From Sulfolobus acidocaldarius SUSAZ (lineage in GTDB: Archaea; Thermoproteota; Thermoprotei_A; Sulfolobales; Sulfolobaceae), in the NCBI GenBank assembly GCA_000508305.1, contig CP006977.1, forward strand, positions 1,954,621 through 2,018,620: a stretch of DNA of 64,000 bases, read 5' to 3'. Positions 40,210 to 49,319 of this stretch are shown in pieces. Both the position numbers and the translations under genes were made by a program. The notes under the pieces are model-generated. The model did not search any database. It saw only the letters and a list, made by a program, of their open reading frames with translations, and had not been told where the DNA came from. Position 1 is the stretch's first letter, and each line of letters opens with the position of its first letter.

Positions 40210-40253
40210 ATTTACATCTATCTTATTTTACAACAATAAGGTTTGTGTTACTG

Positions 40254-40724
40254 TTCAAACTCATATTTGTAATATTTCACGTTTGGATTTTGCTAAGTAA
40301 GCCAGGGACTAAAATTAGAATTTCTCATTAGCGTAAGTATAATTGAATATTTAGAGGATTTGGGGAAAAAGAAACTTGCGTTAAAAAATTTTTTATCTTA
40401 TCTTTATGTTATCCTTGGTATATTAATGTAGCTGGTACTCCTTGTCCATTGGAGAAGTAAATTGTAGCTGTGTAAGAGGCACCTTGGGAGAAAGATGGTG
40501 TAGTGCCACTTGGAGGTGTTACTGTAATTGTTATGGTTACTGAACTTCCAGCTGGAATTGCTGTGGCTCTTATTGTTGTGGTTTTAGTTGTTGAATTTAT
40601 GGTTGTTGTAGTTCCAACTGGAACTGAAGTACTGACTACATTGAAAGGTTGTCCGTTAATGTTTACGCTTGTTACACTAACAGCTGAAGTTCCAGTATTC
40701 TTAACTGTAATCGTAATAATGTAA
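40254..40724 (-). pseudogene. Silent, inverted copy of the pilin C-terminal region (cassette L)
   Basis: On the minus strand this reads as the pilin gene at 48218 from about codon 68 to the stop (TAA near 40410) and then a further 150 bp of its 3' flank. The frame is open throughout and lacks a start codon and promoter; an in-frame TAA lies a few codons before the homology begins. It is about 97% identical to the expressed copy except at two places: a block at 40562-40600 encoding INSTTKTTTIRAT instead of the 15-residue TNTNGATITNTITTT, and PPSG replacing PAGS. The flank after the stop is also nearly identical, so the duplication is a DNA-level event. It may be a donor cassette or the arm of an invertible segment. 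Confidence 0.85.
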
Positions 40725-40791
40725 CTTATGAATTGTTATAGGATAAGTTTGATCTTCACCTATACTCAAAGATGATTATAGGGACGCTACT

Positions 40792-41554
40792 GTGAAGTAC
40801 AAGGGTTGGTTTTACAATCCCAAGAGTGGTAGATATGCAAGAGTTGGGTGCGTTGCAGTTTGGTTAACTCCTACTATCTTGTATAAGTTAGATCTTGAAA
40901 ACATGAAAGTGTGGATTAGGGATGTTGGTGAATTATTAATTTTGGACTGTCCTAGAAACTTGTCGCTTTATAAAACTTGGGAAATTAGAGAAGGCAGATT
41001 GGTGTTAAGAGATGGTATGGCTGAGGGTTTACAAAAGAAGTATAATAAGAGATGGGAGGAGAATGAGAGAATATTGAATAGAATAAGGCATTTCCATAGA
41101 AGGACTAGGAACGTTTTAGAGGATTCTGCTAAAAAGATTGGTGAATGAGTGTAGTTAAAATTGCTAAAATGTATGACGTTGCAGCAATATTCTTAGAAGA
41201 CCTAAATAACTTGGTTAAACATGTTAAGCAATTGTTGAAGTAATTTAGAGAATAGACTTTAACTTTATACATTATCGTAGGGTTCAATTTTGGGTTGAAT
41301 GATAAGTAAAGAAAAGTGGATTAAAGATAATTAAAGTCAAGGCTTTCTATACTTCCACTCGTTGTCTCAAGTGTGGTAATGAGATGAAAGAGGTTTCTCA
41401 TAGGTGTTTTAAATACGTCAAATGTTGTTATGAAAATGATAGGGATGTTATTGCTGTGATGAATCTTTGGGAGGTTTTCTGAGCCTCCTGACTGTTGCTT
41501 AGAGATGTAAGCCCGAACCGATGAGGAGAACCCTCATAGCAGTGAGGAAGTCAG
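40792..41554 (+). pseudogene. tnpB: Degraded tnpB (IS200/IS605 family) with right end
   Basis: TnpB-like stretches appear in order: GWFYNPKSGRY...DLENMKVWIRDVGELLILD (from GTG 40792), AEGLQKKYNKRWEENERILNRIRHFHRRTRNVLED, VVKIAKMYDVAAIFLEDLNNLVKHV, FYTSTRCLKCGNEMKEVSHR with the zinc-finger cysteines, and ENDRDVIAVMNLW with the last RuvC Asp. Stop codons and two internal deletions break it, including loss of the first RuvC Asp region. The tail (41500-41554) ends in GAGGAAGTCAG, the right-end sequence also carried by the small palindromic elements. It is inactive and lies directly beside cassette L. Confidence 0.83.
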
Positions 41555-41842
41555 ATATATATCAACTTATGGGCTATTTTATAGTGTACTACTAGATCTA
41601 GAATTAATTGAATCTATCAAAATTTTATATTTAGTTATTTTTATATACTATTATTATCAAAATTATGATTACCTGTATACATTTGTAAGATTTATACAAT
41701 TAGCTTTCACTGCATTATAAAACCGTAAAACAATAAAACTCTTAATACTATTTTCTCTCTTTACAAAATGTAATATGTAGATATAAGTGGAAGATAATAG
41801 TTAATTTTATAAGTTTGTAATAGTTTGTATAATAAGATTACC

Positions 41843-42325
41843 ATGATACGACGTTATAGATATGATAAACGAAGGATCAGAGCACTTTCCGGAGCAATAG
41901 TAGCTTTAATTTTGGTGATAGCAGGAGTCATAATAGCTACCGCAGTAGTCCTATTTGCGTTTGGTCTGATCCCAGCCATATCCAATCAAGGCAGTGCACA
42001 GGTAGTTGGAACTGGTGCTATTGAATACGCAGGTTCAGGTCAATATAATATAATTATAACAGTGAGAAATACAGCATCTAATTTTAACGTGACAGTAAGT
42101 AGCATTAACATCGCTGGTATTAGCTTCACAATAAACAAGATCAATAACATAACTTATAATCCTAATAATCCTATGGAACAAGTAGGACCAGGAAAAATAG
42201 AGACATTGACCATAACAGCAACTCCAACATCATCAATAGTCTTCTCATCTGGTCAAACATATACTGCAACTGTCTACTTTTCTAATGGTCTAGGTGCACC
42301 AACTACTCTAATATATCAAGGCTGA
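41843..42325 (+). CDS. aapB: Type IV pilin, AapB-like
   Basis: About 160 residues. The class III signal peptide is RIRALSGAIVALILVIAGVIIATAVVLFAFGLIPAI: a basic N-terminus, cleavage by PibD near ALSG/A, then the hydrophobic alpha1 helix. The C-terminal part is a Thr/Asn-rich beta domain ending ATVYFSNGLGAPTTLIYQG, the same ending as the second pilin. I prefer the ATG at 41843; a TTG at 41825 gives six extra residues. Upstream is TTTATAAGT at 41805-41813. Its TGA stop is supplied by the palindromic element that begins here. The order of the locus matches the S. acidocaldarius aap genes; the symbol is by that match. Confidence 0.87.
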   Translation: MIRRYRYDKRRIRALSGAIVALILVIAGVIIATAVVLFAFGLIPAISNQGSAQVVGTGAIEYAGSGQYNIIITVRNTASNFNVTVSSINIAGISFTINKINNITYNPNNPMEQVGPGKIETLTITATPTSSIVFSSGQTYTATVYFSNGLGAPTTLIYQG

Positions 42326-42370
42326 CTTCCTCCCCGCCCTAAAAGGCGAGGCTTTCGTCATTTTGTAAAA
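42323..42370 (-). repeat. Palindromic IS200/IS605-type end element, copy C
   Basis: On the minus strand: TTTTTAC, AAAATGACGAAAGCCTCGCC, TTTTAGGGCGGGGAGGAAGT, CAG. TTAC precedes the left end. Its right end meets the pilin gene: the TGA stop of the pilin is the first three bases of this element read on the plus strand. Confidence 0.8.
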
Positions 42371-42464
42371 ACATTATATTTCATAATTTATTTCTAGTTC
42401 TATTTTCCTCTCTTTTGCATGCTTTATTAAAAAACTCTTTATAAAAATTCAATGTAGTTTTCAA

Positions 42465-42555
42465 TGCGGCCGCCGGGATTCGAACCCGGGATTGCTGGCT
42501 TTCCTCTCTGACTAATGGAAGGCCAGCGTCCTAATCCAGACTAGACGACGGCCGC
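42465..42555 (-). tRNA. tRNA-Gly (TCC) with intron
   Basis: Acceptor stem GCGGCCG pairs with CGGCCGC. D arm GTCTAGTCTGGATTAGGAC. The anticodon arm CTGGC/GCCAG encloses C-T-TCC-A, a roughly 15-nt intron at the archaeal 37/38 site (TTAGTCAGAGAGGAA), then A. T arm CCGGG-TTCGAAT-CCCGG. Anticodon TCC. No CCA is encoded. Confidence 0.9.
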
Positions 42556-42608
42556 GAGATAATTAATTGACTTGTAGGCTTAAAAAACTTTTTCCATAAA
42601 ACCTTCTT

Positions 42609-44192
42609 TCATCCGTTTACTAATAACTCGTCGAAGAGACTCTGAATTAGTTTGGGCTCAACCACGCTCTTTAGAGCTATCTTTAAATATTTTACGAATT
42701 CATCACTTCCAGCTATCTCCCTGTTCTCATATGAAGCGTTCTTGCCAATCAGTTTAACTAGATTGTCTATCTTTTCTTCATCCAATGTCTTTTCGCTCAT
42801 CTCATAAACTTTACTTACAATAGTCTTGAGGAACATGGGATCTAATGACTTTATCCATGTTTCATATTCCTTCAAAGATTGCCTGAAATTCTCTATAAAC
42901 TTCTTCCTTATTATAGGGCTAACTAGTTTAACAAAGTAGTCTGGATTCCCTGTCTTTAATGCAGAAAGATTGCTAGCTATTTCTTTGGCTGAATTAAAAG
43001 ACGCAGTATTTATTGAGTTCAGAACCTCATCCACTAATATCTTATCAAGATTTCCTATGTTTACTTCAATGACTTTTCTAGTATAGACAGAGAGAACTCC
43101 TAATTTATATGTTATAAAGGGACAGACTGATTTAGCCTCTCCTTCTTTCTGGGTGGTTCTGTGGGTTATTTGGTAATCAACATCAACTCCTATTTTCTTA
43201 GCCCAAGTACATCCATAAACCTTGTCCCTAACATAAGGCTTTATAACATCATATCCGAAGAAACCTCTTTTACCTCCAAATCTTGTGTAAACGTAAAAAC
43301 CTTCTGGGCATAGGAAGTAAATTCCCTCAGCACTATTATTTTCAAGCAATTTTTCAATATATGTTACATCATTGCGTGCACCACTCAGGTCACCGGCTAT
43401 GTACTTATTGAATCCACAACAGACATTGTCAATAATTTTCACTCTGGGGGAGACGTCAGTAAGATTATCACCATATTTATACAGATATTCTAGAAAACCT
43501 AAGATGCCTATCTCATCGTAATTAGCCATACAGCCGACAAATAACAAATAAAGTGGATATGCGTTGTATTTCTCCTCTAACAATTTCTCGTATTCCTTAA
43601 CTTTGTCAGAAACAGGAGTTATTTTGGGCATATCTTCAAAATCTGTGACATAAGCAGGTATTCTAATGTTGGACGGAACTCTCCTCCTTCTCAATTTATA
43701 TATTGAAGCAGAAAGATAATCCTTCAATTCAGATAACTTAGGTCCCTTATAGTCTAAGTTGAACGTAACCCTTCTATTTTTAACTGTAATGTATAGTTTC
43801 GCATACTCTCTTCCATCTATTATCATTAAATATATAAGAGTCCTGTTCTTGTACAAAACATCTCCTATCATAGCAAAGTATCTTGTAGATAAACTGAAGG
43901 AACCAAATCTGCTTTTAGCCTGCTCAAATAAGTTCTTGGGATCGGCAAGGAATGCGATAATGCTATTGTCACTATCTCCTTCCATTTGGATTGTTTTCTT
44001 GAATCTGAGGAGGCTATTTAGAGTCAATATAATACCAGCAACTAATAAACCTATACCAGCCCCTAACATTGTTGGCGCAATTAGGAAAAATCCTGGTCTT
44101 GAGCGGAAAGCTACGAAAAATACTATTAGGATAATACCTATTATGATAAATAAGTAGTAGTAATAGTTCCTTAATCTGATGAGAGCTGACAT
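42609..44192 (-). CDS. aapX: AapX-like membrane-anchored cysteine-rich oxidoreductase
   Basis: 527 residues. Two membrane helices near the N-terminus (YLFIIIGIILIVFFVAF, APTMLGAGIGLLVAGIILTL), then a soluble part with cysteine motifs VGCMANY ... NVCCGFNKY ... YFLCPEGFY, resembling the CCG domain of HdrB and iron-sulfur oxidoreductases, and a long helical C-terminus. In the S. acidocaldarius Aap locus a gene of this type (AapX) lies with the assembly ATPase and platform protein, and it is reported necessary for pili. The exact chemistry is unknown. It is downstream of aapE (85 nt) and may be co-transcribed. Confidence 0.78.
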   Translation of the reverse strand: MSALIRLRNYYYYLFIIIGIILIVFFVAFRSRPGFFLIAPTMLGAGIGLLVAGIILTLNSLLRFKKTIQMEGDSDNSIIAFLADPKNLFEQAKSRFGSFSLSTRYFAMIGDVLYKNRTLIYLMIIDGREYAKLYITVKNRRVTFNLDYKGPKLSELKDYLSASIYKLRRRRVPSNIRIPAYVTDFEDMPKITPVSDKVKEYEKLLEEKYNAYPLYLLFVGCMANYDEIGILGFLEYLYKYGDNLTDVSPRVKIIDNVCCGFNKYIAGDLSGARNDVTYIEKLLENNSAEGIYFLCPEGFYVYTRFGGKRGFFGYDVIKPYVRDKVYGCTWAKKIGVDVDYQITHRTTQKEGEAKSVCPFITYKLGVLSVYTRKVIEVNIGNLDKILVDEVLNSINTASFNSAKEIASNLSALKTGNPDYFVKLVSPIIRKKFIENFRQSLKEYETWIKSLDPMFLKTIVSKVYEMSEKTLDEEKIDNLVKLIGKNASYENREIAGSDEFVKYLKIALKSVVEPKLIQSLFDELLVNG

Positions 44193-44277
44193 AATCCTCC
44201 CTTAAATTTAATTGGAATATATGAGAAGCAAAAATAAAAATATTTGCATCCTAACTAATGTTAAAAATAAGATAAGG

Positions 44278-45960
44278 TTATACTTTAGCAACACTTATTC
44301 TTTGAACTTCCTTGATTGCTTCATCAGGTTTTATGGAGTATAATACTATGTACTTCTTAACGAAAACATAAGCATCTGGTCTATCTAATATCTGCTTTAT
44401 ACCAGATAACATTTTAAGGTAATTCGCCCTTCTCTTTATCTCATCTCCTACAATATCTAAGTTCAGTCCAATCTCCTCAATTCTGCTCTTCAATACCTCA
44501 CTCTTACTCAAATCGAATGTATGTGAATCAGTATTTGGATCCCAGTTACCAACTTTCTTTAACCTGTTATATGAAACCACTTCATCAACTTCTACAACCC
44601 TTCGCTTGAATGAAAGACCAAATGGTATTCTCCTTACAGTTAAAACAACATTCATCATAGGAATCCAATCCCTAGGTATATTCAGGGGCTCATTCATCAA
44701 CCTCTTTATTGCAGACTCTGGATCATATGCGTGAAAAGTAGTAGCTCCACCGTGTCCAGTACTTAATGCTTGGAACAATACATATGACTCTTCTCCTCTA
44801 ATCTCACCAACAGTTATTATATCAGGTCTATATCTCAGAGATAACTTAAGTAAGTCCATTAGGGTAATCTCCTTTCCTAGGGCACCGAATACTGGTCTAG
44901 TGTAAAGCTGAACCCAATTATCCCTAGCCAACTTCAGCTCTGGTATATCTTCTATACTAACTATTTTCATGGTATCCTTAACCAAGTTCAGTAGTGCGTT
45001 TAGCACAGTGGTCTTTCCTGCTCCAGTGGTACCTATGACCATAAACGACATCTTCAGATCTATGGCATACCATAAGTAAGCAACTAAATCTGCTGAAATA
45101 ACGCCTTGATTTATTAAGTGTAATACAGTCACTGGGCTCTCTGAGAATCTCCTTATTACGAAAGAAGTACCTTTTGCGCTTACCTCTCGTCCGTATGTAG
45201 CTGCTATTCTATCTCCTGCAGGTAACATACCATCTGAGATCGGACTGGCAATAGATATTGATCTCCCTGATAACGATATATATCTCATAGTTATCTGGTT
45301 AAGAAACTCCTCTCCATCAACCTCATCATTCAATACACTCATTCTTTTCTGAAATATTATATTAGTTGGAATATATTCATAGTCCCTATGGTAGACATAT
45401 ATGGGGGCATTTAGTCCATTCACAGATATATCCTCAACTTTATAGTCAGCTAAAAGTGGTGTGAACACATTATAACCTAACAAGTTTCGTATAATGTGAT
45501 ACAGAGCTACCCTAGCTTCAGGTTTTAAGACTGTGTAATCACCACGAGAGCCCTCTATTACATAATCTCTATATATATTCGAAAAGTCCCTAATACTGGC
45601 TCCTATATCAAAATGCTTTCCTACAAACTGCCTCTCGAGATATTTTATAAGTAATTTGTAGATTACAAACGACTTCTCGTCTAGTGGAGGTTCAATGAGA
45701 ACGTACTTGTGAACTCCCCTATCATTATCAAAGTAAATAAAGACGTGAGGATTAGGAATTTTCATTTCTATGCCTGAATTATTCAGCTGATCAACTAGAT
45801 ACTTGGAAATTTGAGATAGTACATCGACCTCATATTCAGACGAGATATTAAGTACTTCTTCTGGAATCCCAGTGAAAGGGTAGAGAGTAACTGGTATCTT
45901 GTATTGAGATATCTCTTCCAGATCCTTATTAGACTTTCGAGTAAATTTACTAAGTGCCAT
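44278..45960 (-). CDS. aapE: Pilus assembly ATPase (GspE/PilB superfamily), AapE-like
   Basis: 560 residues. The ATPase core has VIGTTGAGKTTVLNALL (Walker A, about 320), the Asp-box EDIPELKL, HGGATTFHAYDPE and Walker B DIITVGEIRGEESYVL. The N-terminal half is the archaeal assembly-ATPase domain with DYKVEDISVNGLNAPIYVYHRDYEYI. It hydrolyses ATP on the cytoplasmic face to drive pilin assembly by the platform protein AapF. Its promoter has a TATA-like CTTATATAATTT (45980-45990) at leaderless distance from the ATG at 45960. Confidence 0.92.
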   Translation of the reverse strand: MALSKFTRKSNKDLEEISQYKIPVTLYPFTGIPEEVLNISSEYEVDVLSQISKYLVDQLNNSGIEMKIPNPHVFIYFDNDRGVHKYVLIEPPLDEKSFVIYKLLIKYLERQFVGKHFDIGASIRDFSNIYRDYVIEGSRGDYTVLKPEARVALYHIIRNLLGYNVFTPLLADYKVEDISVNGLNAPIYVYHRDYEYIPTNIIFQKRMSVLNDEVDGEEFLNQITMRYISLSGRSISIASPISDGMLPAGDRIAATYGREVSAKGTSFVIRRFSESPVTVLHLINQGVISADLVAYLWYAIDLKMSFMVIGTTGAGKTTVLNALLNLVKDTMKIVSIEDIPELKLARDNWVQLYTRPVFGALGKEITLMDLLKLSLRYRPDIITVGEIRGEESYVLFQALSTGHGGATTFHAYDPESAIKRLMNEPLNIPRDWIPMMNVVLTVRRIPFGLSFKRRVVEVDEVVSYNRLKKVGNWDPNTDSHTFDLSKSEVLKSRIEEIGLNLDIVGDEIKRRANYLKMLSGIKQILDRPDAYVFVKKYIVLYSIKPDEAIKEVQRISVAKV

Positions 45961-46128
45961 AGTATATATATATAAAACTCCAAATTATATAAGCTTTTCA
46001 CCTTCTATAAGTTATCTTCAAATCAAATAACAAGCTTTTTGAGGAAGAAAAAATACAATAATTAAAAAGGTTTCCTGAACCTCTATTTTCTCATAAGAAC
46101 TAATAAAAAACCTAACTTTCTGAATGAT

Positions 46129-47961
46129 TTAGAAACTTATGTTAGAGTGGAAGTTTGGTACTATTGAAATTCGCAGCTCTACAAACACGAAAATTACAAG
46201 CGTAACTACTATCATGAGTATTATAGCATGTATAAACCCTGCGGCGGCTTTACCATAACCGATCTTACCAATTAATAAACCTGCCAGAAATGCGTTTAGT
46301 ATACCTGATATTGCAGTAATGAATATGATTTGTGGAATTGAAACTAAACCAGTAGCTATTGGTCCATAAACAGCTATTCCAGAATTCAACATACTTAAAA
46401 TACCACTAGCTAAGAGGAACGTAGCAATCAGAGATATCAAGACACCTGCATAGGGAGTAGCAATAAGTGGTTTTACCTTCCCTTGATATTCTCTTCTAAC
46501 TACTAGCTGACTATTTATTTGATCAGCTAGAGCTCTAACGTTGTCAGGTGTCATACTGCCAATCTCAATCATATCTGAAAGAGTGTAAAGAGCTATTTTA
46601 CTTGCGAATTCATTAATCGAATCAGCCCCTCTTTTCAGAGCTATCGTTAGAGGATAGCCTAACTTCAAATATCCATCAACCTTTCTTAAAACTTCCCTGA
46701 ACTTACCCATTTCCTGAGCGTCTTTCAGTCTAGTAACTACAGTCTCGAAAGTAAGACCTGCCAATAGACCTTCAGATATTGCACTCAGAAACTTTACAGC
46801 ATACTCCTCAAATCCACTCTTCTCTCTCATCTCCTTCTGATAGAAAAATGCAGGAGGTACTAAAGCTACTAATAAACCTATTAAGAGAGCAATTGATACA
46901 GGAAAGACGTTCTGCAGACCTCCTGAAAGAGTTATGAAATATATTATCTGATGTTCAAATATCATGATCAGGAAAGCTATAATCAAACCTATTGGTAGTG
47001 AGATGTAAAATATTTTATATGCACTAGATTGACTTTCAGGGAATTTAAGCTGTAAGGAGTCTGCCATATAGACAAAGAGTAAGTTAACCATTGGCACAAC
47101 TAATACCACCACAGGACCAAGAACAGTCAACAAGGAACTCGAGTTACCAACGAAGGGTAATATAGCACCCATTATTAAAACGAGGTATAACATTATATAG
47201 CCAGAAGAAAGCCAAACTACATAAGATTCTGCTACACCCTGAAGCTTATCTGAGGCTAAAGCTGCGGCTAATGAAAACTGCTTAGATAGGTCCTTTAACT
47301 TAGCTTCCATAGTCTCTATCACAGGAGCACCAGTCCTTATTGCCGTAACATAAGCTAGCATAAAGTCATTGAATAGCTTGCCTGGATTTATATCCATAGC
47401 CTTTAATAAAGCCTGCTCAATACTTTCACTTAAGTATTGAACTCTTCTATTAACGTATACTACAATATCTTGGACAAACGAAAATGCCTTAGTTCCCTCT
47501 AATTTTCTAAACAAGATCACTGGAGATAAACCAGACTTAAGAAATATGACAAATAACGTAGCAAATGAGAATGACTCAGCGTCTACCCCATTCTTTATTT
47601 TGTCAATTTTCTGCGATATATCGAGAATAGATATGAGATAAGCTATTGGGGGAATTATAACTCCAAGGAACAACATAACTAATGAGAGAGCTAGATATGC
47701 TGGCAAAAGTGTGGCTCTGTAAAACCTGAGGAAAATTATTAGAGCGAAAGAGATAAACATAACAGCCAAGACGATACATACAAGTAAGATGAGGAACAGC
47801 CTGCTAGCAAACAGTTTCGGATCTTCTGTGTTTCTAGAAGTTAAAAGTCTTTTATCGAAATAACCAGCTAACCTTTTGACAAATGGTGTATTGTAAAATA
47901 ATAAATACACTGAAGGAATGTTAATCTTGGAGGACTTTTTATCCTTACTCATCTTACTCAT
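46129..47961 (-). CDS. aapF: Pilus assembly platform protein (GspF/TadC-like), AapF-like
   Basis: 610 residues with about nine membrane segments in two GspF-like units; the cytoplasmic parts are VESFSFATLFVIFLKSGLSPVILFRKLEGT... and EYAVKFLSAISEGLLAGLTFETVVTRLKDAQEMGKFREVLRKVDGYLKLGYPLTIAL. This is the size and pattern of archaeal double T2SF platform proteins that pair with AapE. It is first of the minus-strand group aapF-aapE-aapX and lies 257 bp from the divergent pilin gene at 48218. The C-terminus (VELRISIVPNFHSNISF) ends after a last membrane helix. Confidence 0.88.
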   Translation of the reverse strand: MSKMSKDKKSSKINIPSVYLLFYNTPFVKRLAGYFDKRLLTSRNTEDPKLFASRLFLILLVCIVLAVMFISFALIIFLRFYRATLLPAYLALSLVMLFLGVIIPPIAYLISILDISQKIDKIKNGVDAESFSFATLFVIFLKSGLSPVILFRKLEGTKAFSFVQDIVVYVNRRVQYLSESIEQALLKAMDINPGKLFNDFMLAYVTAIRTGAPVIETMEAKLKDLSKQFSLAAALASDKLQGVAESYVVWLSSGYIMLYLVLIMGAILPFVGNSSSLLTVLGPVVVLVVPMVNLLFVYMADSLQLKFPESQSSAYKIFYISLPIGLIIAFLIMIFEHQIIYFITLSGGLQNVFPVSIALLIGLLVALVPPAFFYQKEMREKSGFEEYAVKFLSAISEGLLAGLTFETVVTRLKDAQEMGKFREVLRKVDGYLKLGYPLTIALKRGADSINEFASKIALYTLSDMIEIGSMTPDNVRALADQINSQLVVRREYQGKVKPLIATPYAGVLISLIATFLLASGILSMLNSGIAVYGPIATGLVSIPQIIFITAISGILNAFLAGLLIGKIGYGKAAAGFIHAIILMIVVTLVIFVFVELRISIVPNFHSNISF

Positions 47962-48177
47962 GTATATTCACACAGTAAAAGTATATAAATTAAGTTAAGT
48001 CTAAAACTTAAATCTATGGAAAACTGCCTTTTCTTTATAGCTTTAAACAGAGAATCTTATTATTCTAGGATATCCAGAGTATACTAAATACATGATTTAA
48101 ATTCTACCAGTTATTTACTTTTTTGGTATCACTCATTCGATTTTGACTCGAAATATAGTGCTTACAAGAAAGAGGAA

Positions 48178-48191
48178 AAATTTAATATTAA
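48178..48191 (+). promoter_or_regulatory. TATA-like box of the expressed pilin
   Basis: AAATTTAATATTAA about 30 nt before the ATG at 48218. It lies inside the DNA bounded by the inverted repeats, so inversion would carry it together with the pilin N-terminal coding region. Confidence 0.5.
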
Positions 48192-48217
48192 AATCCTTAC
48201 TTTTAATATGATAATAT

Positions 48218-48739
48218 ATGAATGTAGAAGTGAAGAAGAGCAAGAAAAAGAACATGAGAGCATTATCCGGAGCAATAGTAGCTCTAATTCTAGTAATAGC
48301 AGGTGTAATAATAGCCATAGCAGTAGTATTATTCGCCTTTGGTTTAATACCAGGAATATCAAACCAGGGAAGCATACAAGTTCTGGGAAGTGGAACTATT
48401 AGTGGTACTGCAGCTCCTTACACTATTACGATTACAGTTAAGAATACTGGAACTTCAGATGTTAGTGTAACAAGCATAAACATTAACGGACAACCTTTCA
48501 CTGTAAGCAGTACTTCAGTTCCAGTTGGAACTACAACAACCACAAATACAAACGGTGCTACAATAACAAACACAATAACAACCACAGCAATTCCAGCTGG
48601 AAGTTCAGTAACCATAACAATTACAGTAACACCTGCAGGTAGCACTACACCATCTTTCTCCCAAGGTGCCTCTTACACAGCTACAATTTACTTCTCCAAT
48701 GGACAAGGAGTACCAGCTACATTAATATACCAAGGATAA
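48218..48739 (+). CDS. aapA: Type IV pilin, AapA-like (expressed copy with variable C-terminal domain)
   Basis: 173 residues. Class III signal KKNMRALSGAIVALILVIAGVIIAIAVVLFAFGLIPGI with basic leader and PibD cleavage near ALSG/A. The mature protein is a hydrophobic helix plus a Thr-rich beta domain ending ATIYFSNGQGVPATLIYQG. Residues from about 68 onward, and the DNA after the stop, are duplicated in inverted orientation at 40254-40724. The two copies differ mainly at residues 109-123, a Thr/Asn loop that is probably on the pilus surface. It is divergent from the assembly genes, and forms Aap pili with AapB (by synteny with S. acidocaldarius). Confidence 0.9.
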   Translation: MNVEVKKSKKKNMRALSGAIVALILVIAGVIIAIAVVLFAFGLIPGISNQGSIQVLGSGTISGTAAPYTITITVKNTGTSDVSVTSININGQPFTVSSTSVPVGTTTTTNTNGATITNTITTTAIPAGSSVTITITVTPAGSTTPSFSQGASYTATIYFSNGQGVPATLIYQG

Positions 48740-48893
48740 CATAAAGGTAAGATAAAAAATTTTTTAACGCAAGTTTTCTTTTTCCCCAAATCCTCTAAAT
48801 ATTCAATTATACTTACGCTAATGAGAAATTCTAATTTTAGTCCCTAGCTTACTTGGCAAAATCCAACGTGAAATATTACAAATATGAGTTGAA
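48418..48893 (+). repeat. Inverted repeat arm R (pilin C-terminal region and 3' flank)
   Basis: Matches the reverse complement of 40254-40724. Homology begins at TTACACTATTACG within codon 68 of the pilin and ends near ATATGAGTTGAAAG. Outside a 45-nt block (48542-48586, replaced by 39 nt in the other arm) I count about 14 single-base or one-base-gap differences in roughly 430 positions, about 97% identity. The arms enclose 7.7 kb containing all the aap genes, the tnpB remnant and tRNA-Gly. Confidence 0.88.
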
Positions 48894-49319
48894 AGGATTT
48901 TTAATTTTTCACTAAAATAATGCTAATATACATAACGGTTTTACTGTACTAAAAGCTTGGATAAATAACACTAATGAAACTTTCTATAAAAGTATTTTTC
49001 AACAAAAAATAAACGAAATATCATTTCCTAAGGAGGTTGAGATTTAAATAGCAGAGTAGCGTTAGCCAAAATTTTATAAATATCTGTGGTTTTTTATTAA
49101 CATTGTTTATTCAGCCACGTCATGAATTATTTTATATTAAGTAATACTCACTTAAAACGTAAATGGTAAACAATAACGAATGGAACAATACTATAATCGG
49201 AAGATTCTTAACGGTTAAACTTATCCTTAATTCGCACTTCTTGCTACTTTGAAGTTCGAACTTAATCCTACTAAAAATATATATAGTAATTAACTTGTAT
49301 TAGTATCTAGCGACCACGA
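48894..49319. other. Intergenic region without a recognised gene
   Basis: About 425 bp between the inverted-repeat arm and the glutamate synthase gene. An AT-rich stretch with an AAGGAGGTTGAG string at 49030-49041 and an AATATATATAG TATA-like box at 49274-49284 near the next start. An open stretch without start codon (48916-49047) encodes about 43 residues of no recognised family and may be a remnant. Confidence 0.45.

Follow-up and report, generated by a model that had tools for sequence, protein, structure and literature searches.

In the 64,000-nucleotide stretch of the Sulfolobus acidocaldarius SUSAZ chromosome analysed here (the window), the gene for the major pilin of the adhesive pilus, aapB (copy B), and a truncated, inverted copy of its second half (S) probably exchange sequence by homologous recombination, with a single hairpin tip staying different between them; we give this reading a probability of about 0.6. 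An earlier note, made from the DNA alone, had drawn attention to an in-frame variable block in the pilin. That observation is confirmed and is more general than reported, and the interpretation then attached to it is partly supported.

The chromosome carrying the window is complete (2,061,920 bp). The top PDB match of the window's AapB is 8q30, the S. acidocaldarius AAP filament (E 2.8e-47 by sequence), which also ranks first in a Foldseek fold search (E 3.2e-14), and the gene adjoins aapA, aapX, aapE and aapF, so that both the structural match and the neighbourhood of an AapB-type adhesive pilin are present. The product of 48218-48739 is AapB, the main subunit of the S. acidocaldarius adhesive pilus. 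Positions 41825-48739 constitute the aap adhesive-pilus cluster (aapA, aapX, aapE, aapF and aapB; Table 1), in synteny with L008. The sister strain used for comparison (contig of 2,225,959 bp) encodes an AapB that matches 8q30 as well. Only B is a pilin gene. S has no start codon, promoter or N-terminal helix, the first 67 codons being absent, and retains an intact reading frame of 104 codons free of stops; it is a silent, inverted half-copy, and not the alternative pilin for which it had been taken.

Table 1. Features of the aap region, in positions of the window
Feature	Position	Strand	Remarks
Left arm of inverted repeat: promoterless pilin copy S	40251..40724	-	474 bp; 104 codons, stop and ~150-155 bp of 3' flank
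Variable block in S	40600-40562	-	INSTTKTTTIRAT; contains sequon NST
Degenerate, 5'-truncated TnpB (IS605-type) remnant	40725..41554	+	joined directly to S; ~73% to paralogue
aapA, minor pilin	41825..42325	+	synteny with L008
aapX	42609..44192	-	527 aa; 95% to L008 orthologue
aapE, T2SSE-type assembly ATPase	44278..45960	-	PF00437, E 1e-32
aapF, T2SSF membrane platform	46129..47961	-	PF00482, E 4e-14
aapB, major adhesive-pilus pilin, expressed copy B	48218..48739	+	173 aa; PDB 8q30 match
aapB N-terminal part (signal, alpha helix, first strand)	48218..48417	+	single occurrence; within segment bounded by inverted copies
Island of divergence from sister strain	48401..49200	.	71% identity, against ~88-96% in most neighbouring 400-bp windows
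Right arm of inverted repeat: aapB C-terminal part	48418..48890	+	473 bp; 106 codons, stop and ~150 bp of 3' flank
Variable block in B	48542..48586	+	TNTNGATITNTITTT; codons 109-123 of the 173-aa ORF; no N-glycosylation sequon

The two arms of the inverted repeat are 93.7% identical overall and have identical runs of 105, 71, 53 and 35 bp in common. Within the block, where TNTNGATITNTITTT is replaced by INSTTKTTTIRAT exactly as first described, in sequence and in coordinates, about 11 substitutions fall on 39 aligned bp (~28% of sites, synonymous ones included) in addition to a 6-bp gap. Outside it, the coding sequence carries 9 substitutions in 276 bp (3.3%), all of them non-synonymous, and the 3' flank carries 4 in ~150 bp (2.7%) and two single-base indels. 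The block is accordingly some nine-fold more diverged than its surroundings (Fisher p = 4e-7), and the coding sequence outside the block and the 3' flank are equally diverged (Fisher p = 1.0). The near-identity of the flanks, non-coding DNA included, thus stands as claimed, as does the change from PAGS in B to PPSG in S further downstream. The accompanying claim that change is confined to coding loops fails on three counts: the equal coding and non-coding divergence outside the block, five amino-acid changes upstream of it (T69I, D81A, I87V, T95N and S97V), and the island of divergence at aapB (Table 1), which takes in ~460 bp of non-coding DNA. This island, which otherwise covers the C-terminal half of aapB, is sharply bounded, much as the replacement of an allele would leave it.

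The lack of synonymous changes among the nine outside the block is not significant under neutrality (p = 0.06), and has a probability of 6e-9 at a dN/dS of ~0.05, the value of the neighbouring genes, which excludes purifying selection of the kind acting on those genes for the differences between B and S. Since coding and non-coding DNA outside the block have also diverged equally, S overall seems to be free of selection, and the block has a history of its own. Synonymous differences amount to 3.5 of 14.8 sites in the block versus 0 of 68.7 outside (p = 7e-4), the count within the block being inflated by its ambiguous alignment. Divergence restricted to the block, with synonymous sites and a 6-bp gap included, argues for a mosaic history and not for point selection on a recent duplicate. 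The block is of low complexity and rich in Thr, and slippage may have contributed to its divergence.

AlphaFold predicts for AapB (mean pLDDT 85.8) a hairpin between strands 92-109 and 115-122 with the block at its tip, and the same hairpin for S. The block position in the DSM 639 AapB structure bears the N-glycan of N88, and S. islandicus pili carry O-glycans at Thr95, Ser97, Thr102, Ser104 and Ser106, which by our own reading of the alignment fall in the strand after the block position (PMC11178815, PMC11178852). An exposed position, which the earlier note had proposed, is therefore supported by the predicted beta-hairpin tip and by homologous sites that carry or border glycans in solved pili. 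The number of N-glycosylation sequons is zero in the window's AapB, four in the sister strain's AapB and one in S, inside the block. The solved pilus carries glycans at three of the sister strain's four.

Of the 31 Sulfolobaceae genomes examined, nine contain AapB-like pilins as an inverted pair, 3-10 kb apart and 73-100% identical: G015 (514 bp, 100%), G014 (524 bp, 99.4%), G013 (411 bp, 97.6%), G018 (549 bp, 95%), G017 and G029 (~87% each), G028 (79%), G021 (76%) and G020 (73%). A further genome, G016, has two 99.8% identical pilin copies 340 kb apart. The window's pair fits this pattern, being inverted, within the same range of distance and alike save for the loop block, and departs from it in that its second copy, S, is incomplete. 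In several pairs the difference is restricted to the same loop as in the window, and the relatives' variable loop lies, as it does there, directly before the conserved AG strand. The two copies in G013 are identical at every base of 116 codons, with the leader and one loop replaced, and those in G029 are identical over the first 86 codons, with the loop and the next strand heavily diverged, synonymous sites included. Synonymous differences number 6.8 of 18.7 sites in the block versus 0 of 91.3 outside in G013, and 15.7 of 24 versus 4.5 of 86 in G029; the same jump is seen in the G017 pair and is absent from the G018 pair. Beside the G020 pair lies a third pilin fragment (L062 7917-8039, minus strand), C-terminal only and 41 aa long, a possible parallel to S.

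The pilin tree groups the copies of G013-G017, G021 and G029 by their own genome. The fork of the two G018 copies (94.6% identical) is drawn unresolved, and the G028 and G020 pairs have no supported pairing, homogenisation there appearing to be older or weaker. The pilins of G014, G015 and G016 are 99.8-100% identical within a genome and ~81% identical between genomes, the flanking gene c4 standing at 86-90%. This within-genome likeness holds although G014, G015 and G018 have the left pilin position (beside c1) and the right one (beside c6/c4) in common. In G018 (L057) both copies belong to another type, 70-73% identical to the G014 and G015 pilins, while c4 remains at 86-87%; alleles thus replace both copies together. 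The G018 allele type suggests import, then copying to both sites.

Rearrangements are found at the same pairs. G028 and G029 are colinear in both flanks and inverted in the inner 4.9 kb, which hold the gene of a 627-aa DEAD-box helicase (L060 2600-7482 versus L061 10516-5572); the alignments overlap exactly where the pilin genes lie, and both breakpoints are inside these genes. G029 is colinear with G030. When G014 is compared with G015 and G018, the inner gene is likewise inverted within colinear flanks, and insertion elements make the breakpoints there less clean. Exchange between inverted pilin copies across the Sulfolobaceae is well supported at the level of sequence, and homologous gene conversion combined with inversion fits best as the process at the family's pairs. 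The repeated conversion that the earlier note had suspected from the similar 3' flank gains support from the concerted evolution of the paralogues across the family, the synonymous jump in the block and the inversions at pilin pairs.

The paralogue of the TnpB remnant at G000:C1:1596763-1597752 (~73%) continues leftwards beyond the junction with S. A tnpB-driven capture of the pilin end was considered and rejected, since the remnant, too, is cut short at the junction and paralogues run past it; the junction is therefore a secondary rearrangement and not the end of an element. Several TnpB-like relatives occur in the window's genome, and the paralogue just named has a near-identical 3' end of ~50 bp in common with the remnant. 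The sister strain has neither S nor the remnant, its HxlR-aapA interval being 340 bp versus 1615 bp here, and segment 40725-48417 has the same orientation in both strains, which counts against switching. A single silent fragment, S, was found here, and no set of silent donors, which likewise counts against it.

We propose that aapB and S would exchange sequence through ordinary RadA-type homologous recombination, in which gene conversion would keep most of the shared stretch alike, and the exposed, glycan-bearing hairpin tip would stay different because variants are favoured there or are swapped in as a unit. S would be what is left of a formerly complete inverted partner, and may still pass its block on to aapB, through conversion of a short patch or through inversion of 40725-48417. 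Such an inversion, carried out in silico, yields an intact, in-frame pilin of 171 aa with the S block; in the cell it would move the aapB promoter and N-terminus beside S and so provide another hairpin tip that brings in an N-glycosylation sequon. The cell would likely benefit by presenting an altered surface to viruses or substrates. For S. acidocaldarius, gene conversion in short patches and with discontinuous tracts is reported (PMC4471258), and arms of 30-38 bp are enough there for recombination and targeting (PMC8775617). S as a switchable cassette in SUSAZ is plausible. We advance only tentatively, as a rather doubtful extension, an archaeal switch for pilus variation. In it, a silent inverted half-gene would be used to swap the major pilin's glycan-bearing hairpin, either through conversion of a short patch or through homologous inversion of 7.7 kb that include the whole assembly operon; the same process would take a two-copy form in other Sulfolobaceae.

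The main rival to such a cassette is that S is a dead, decaying remnant: a pilin allele, the strain's own or another's, would have been duplicated beside tnpB and truncated, the block would differ through the source allele or through mutation in S, and no exchange would be going on in this strain. The equal divergence of coding and non-coding DNA outside the block is what a silent, neutrally drifting copy would show, and it counts against exchange. The missing start, promoter and N-terminal helix of S, its junction with a decayed tnpB and its absence from the sister strain agree with a dead copy, which would also still be compatible with exchange across the family. We nevertheless consider it somewhat unlikely, given that the 104-codon frame of S is intact, that the roughly nine-fold divergence of the block requires a source of mosaic origin, and that the relatives' inverted pairs show exchange.

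Far less probable is a plain recent duplication followed by fast positive selection, mutation by mutation, on the exposed loop. Although all nine changes outside the block alter amino acids, and diversifying selection is described for the pilins of S. islandicus (PMC7217056), S is not expressible as it stands, so that selection cannot act on it; the synonymous jump in the block, particularly strong in G013 and G029, and the concerted evolution seen in the paralogue tree led us to reject this explanation. Even less credible as the source of variation is a dedicated site-specific invertase or a diversity-generating retroelement. The geometry is like that of bacterial invertible pilin systems, but a search of the window's genome gave no serine recombinase match (PF00239) and a single tyrosine recombinase match (PF00589), ~730 kb outside the window; no dedicated recombinase is found at the locus, and the invertase was rejected for lack of a candidate. 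The retroelement was rejected on the base pattern, as the changes in the block are not limited to adenines in either direction, C, G and T changing too. Exchange between B and S by homologous recombination remains our preferred reading.

That bacteria vary their pilins by recombination is textbook knowledge. In Neisseria, one expressed gene (pilE) is accompanied by N-truncated silent copies (pilS), with conserved stretches around a variable surface block, and variation proceeds by homologous recombination; in Moraxella, the inverted copies tfpQ and tfpI recombine, whereby the variable half of the gene is exchanged. The aap locus resembles pilE/pilS in its one expressed gene, aapB, and its promoterless, 5'-truncated candidate donor, S, with homology flanking the block. 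It differs in that the silent fragment is single and inverted, the organism is archaeal and switching is putative. In hsdS-type inversion systems, too, recombination between inverted copies swaps a variable gene half (PMC4948785). Unlike these and the Moraxella pair, the locus described here has no invertase that we could find, and its invertible segment would hold a whole assembly operon.

For S. islandicus, three papers report identical copies, pilA1 and pilA2, under diversifying selection (PMC7217056; PMC11178852; PMC11178815), with pilins that are needed for infection by SSV and SIRV (PMC7217056). As described there, that system is like the present one in its homologous, often near-identical pilins, close together on opposite strands and with diversifying sites; unlike pilA1 and pilA2, both complete, the second copy in SUSAZ is only a fragment, which lacks a promoter and lies beside the machinery operon. 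Gene conversion, inversion or a silent truncated copy is not mentioned in the passages searched, and a literature search that reached few subscription journals returned no description of recombination-based variation of an archaeal pilin. If true, exchange between inverted copies would answer a published puzzle, namely why these genomes retain a pair of near-identical pilin genes in opposite orientation though the alleles differ between strains. Several viruses need Sulfolobaceae pili for infection, and a virus-binding role for the block in SUSAZ is plausible by analogy; surface variants generated by recombination would bear on the coevolution of archaeal viruses and their hosts.
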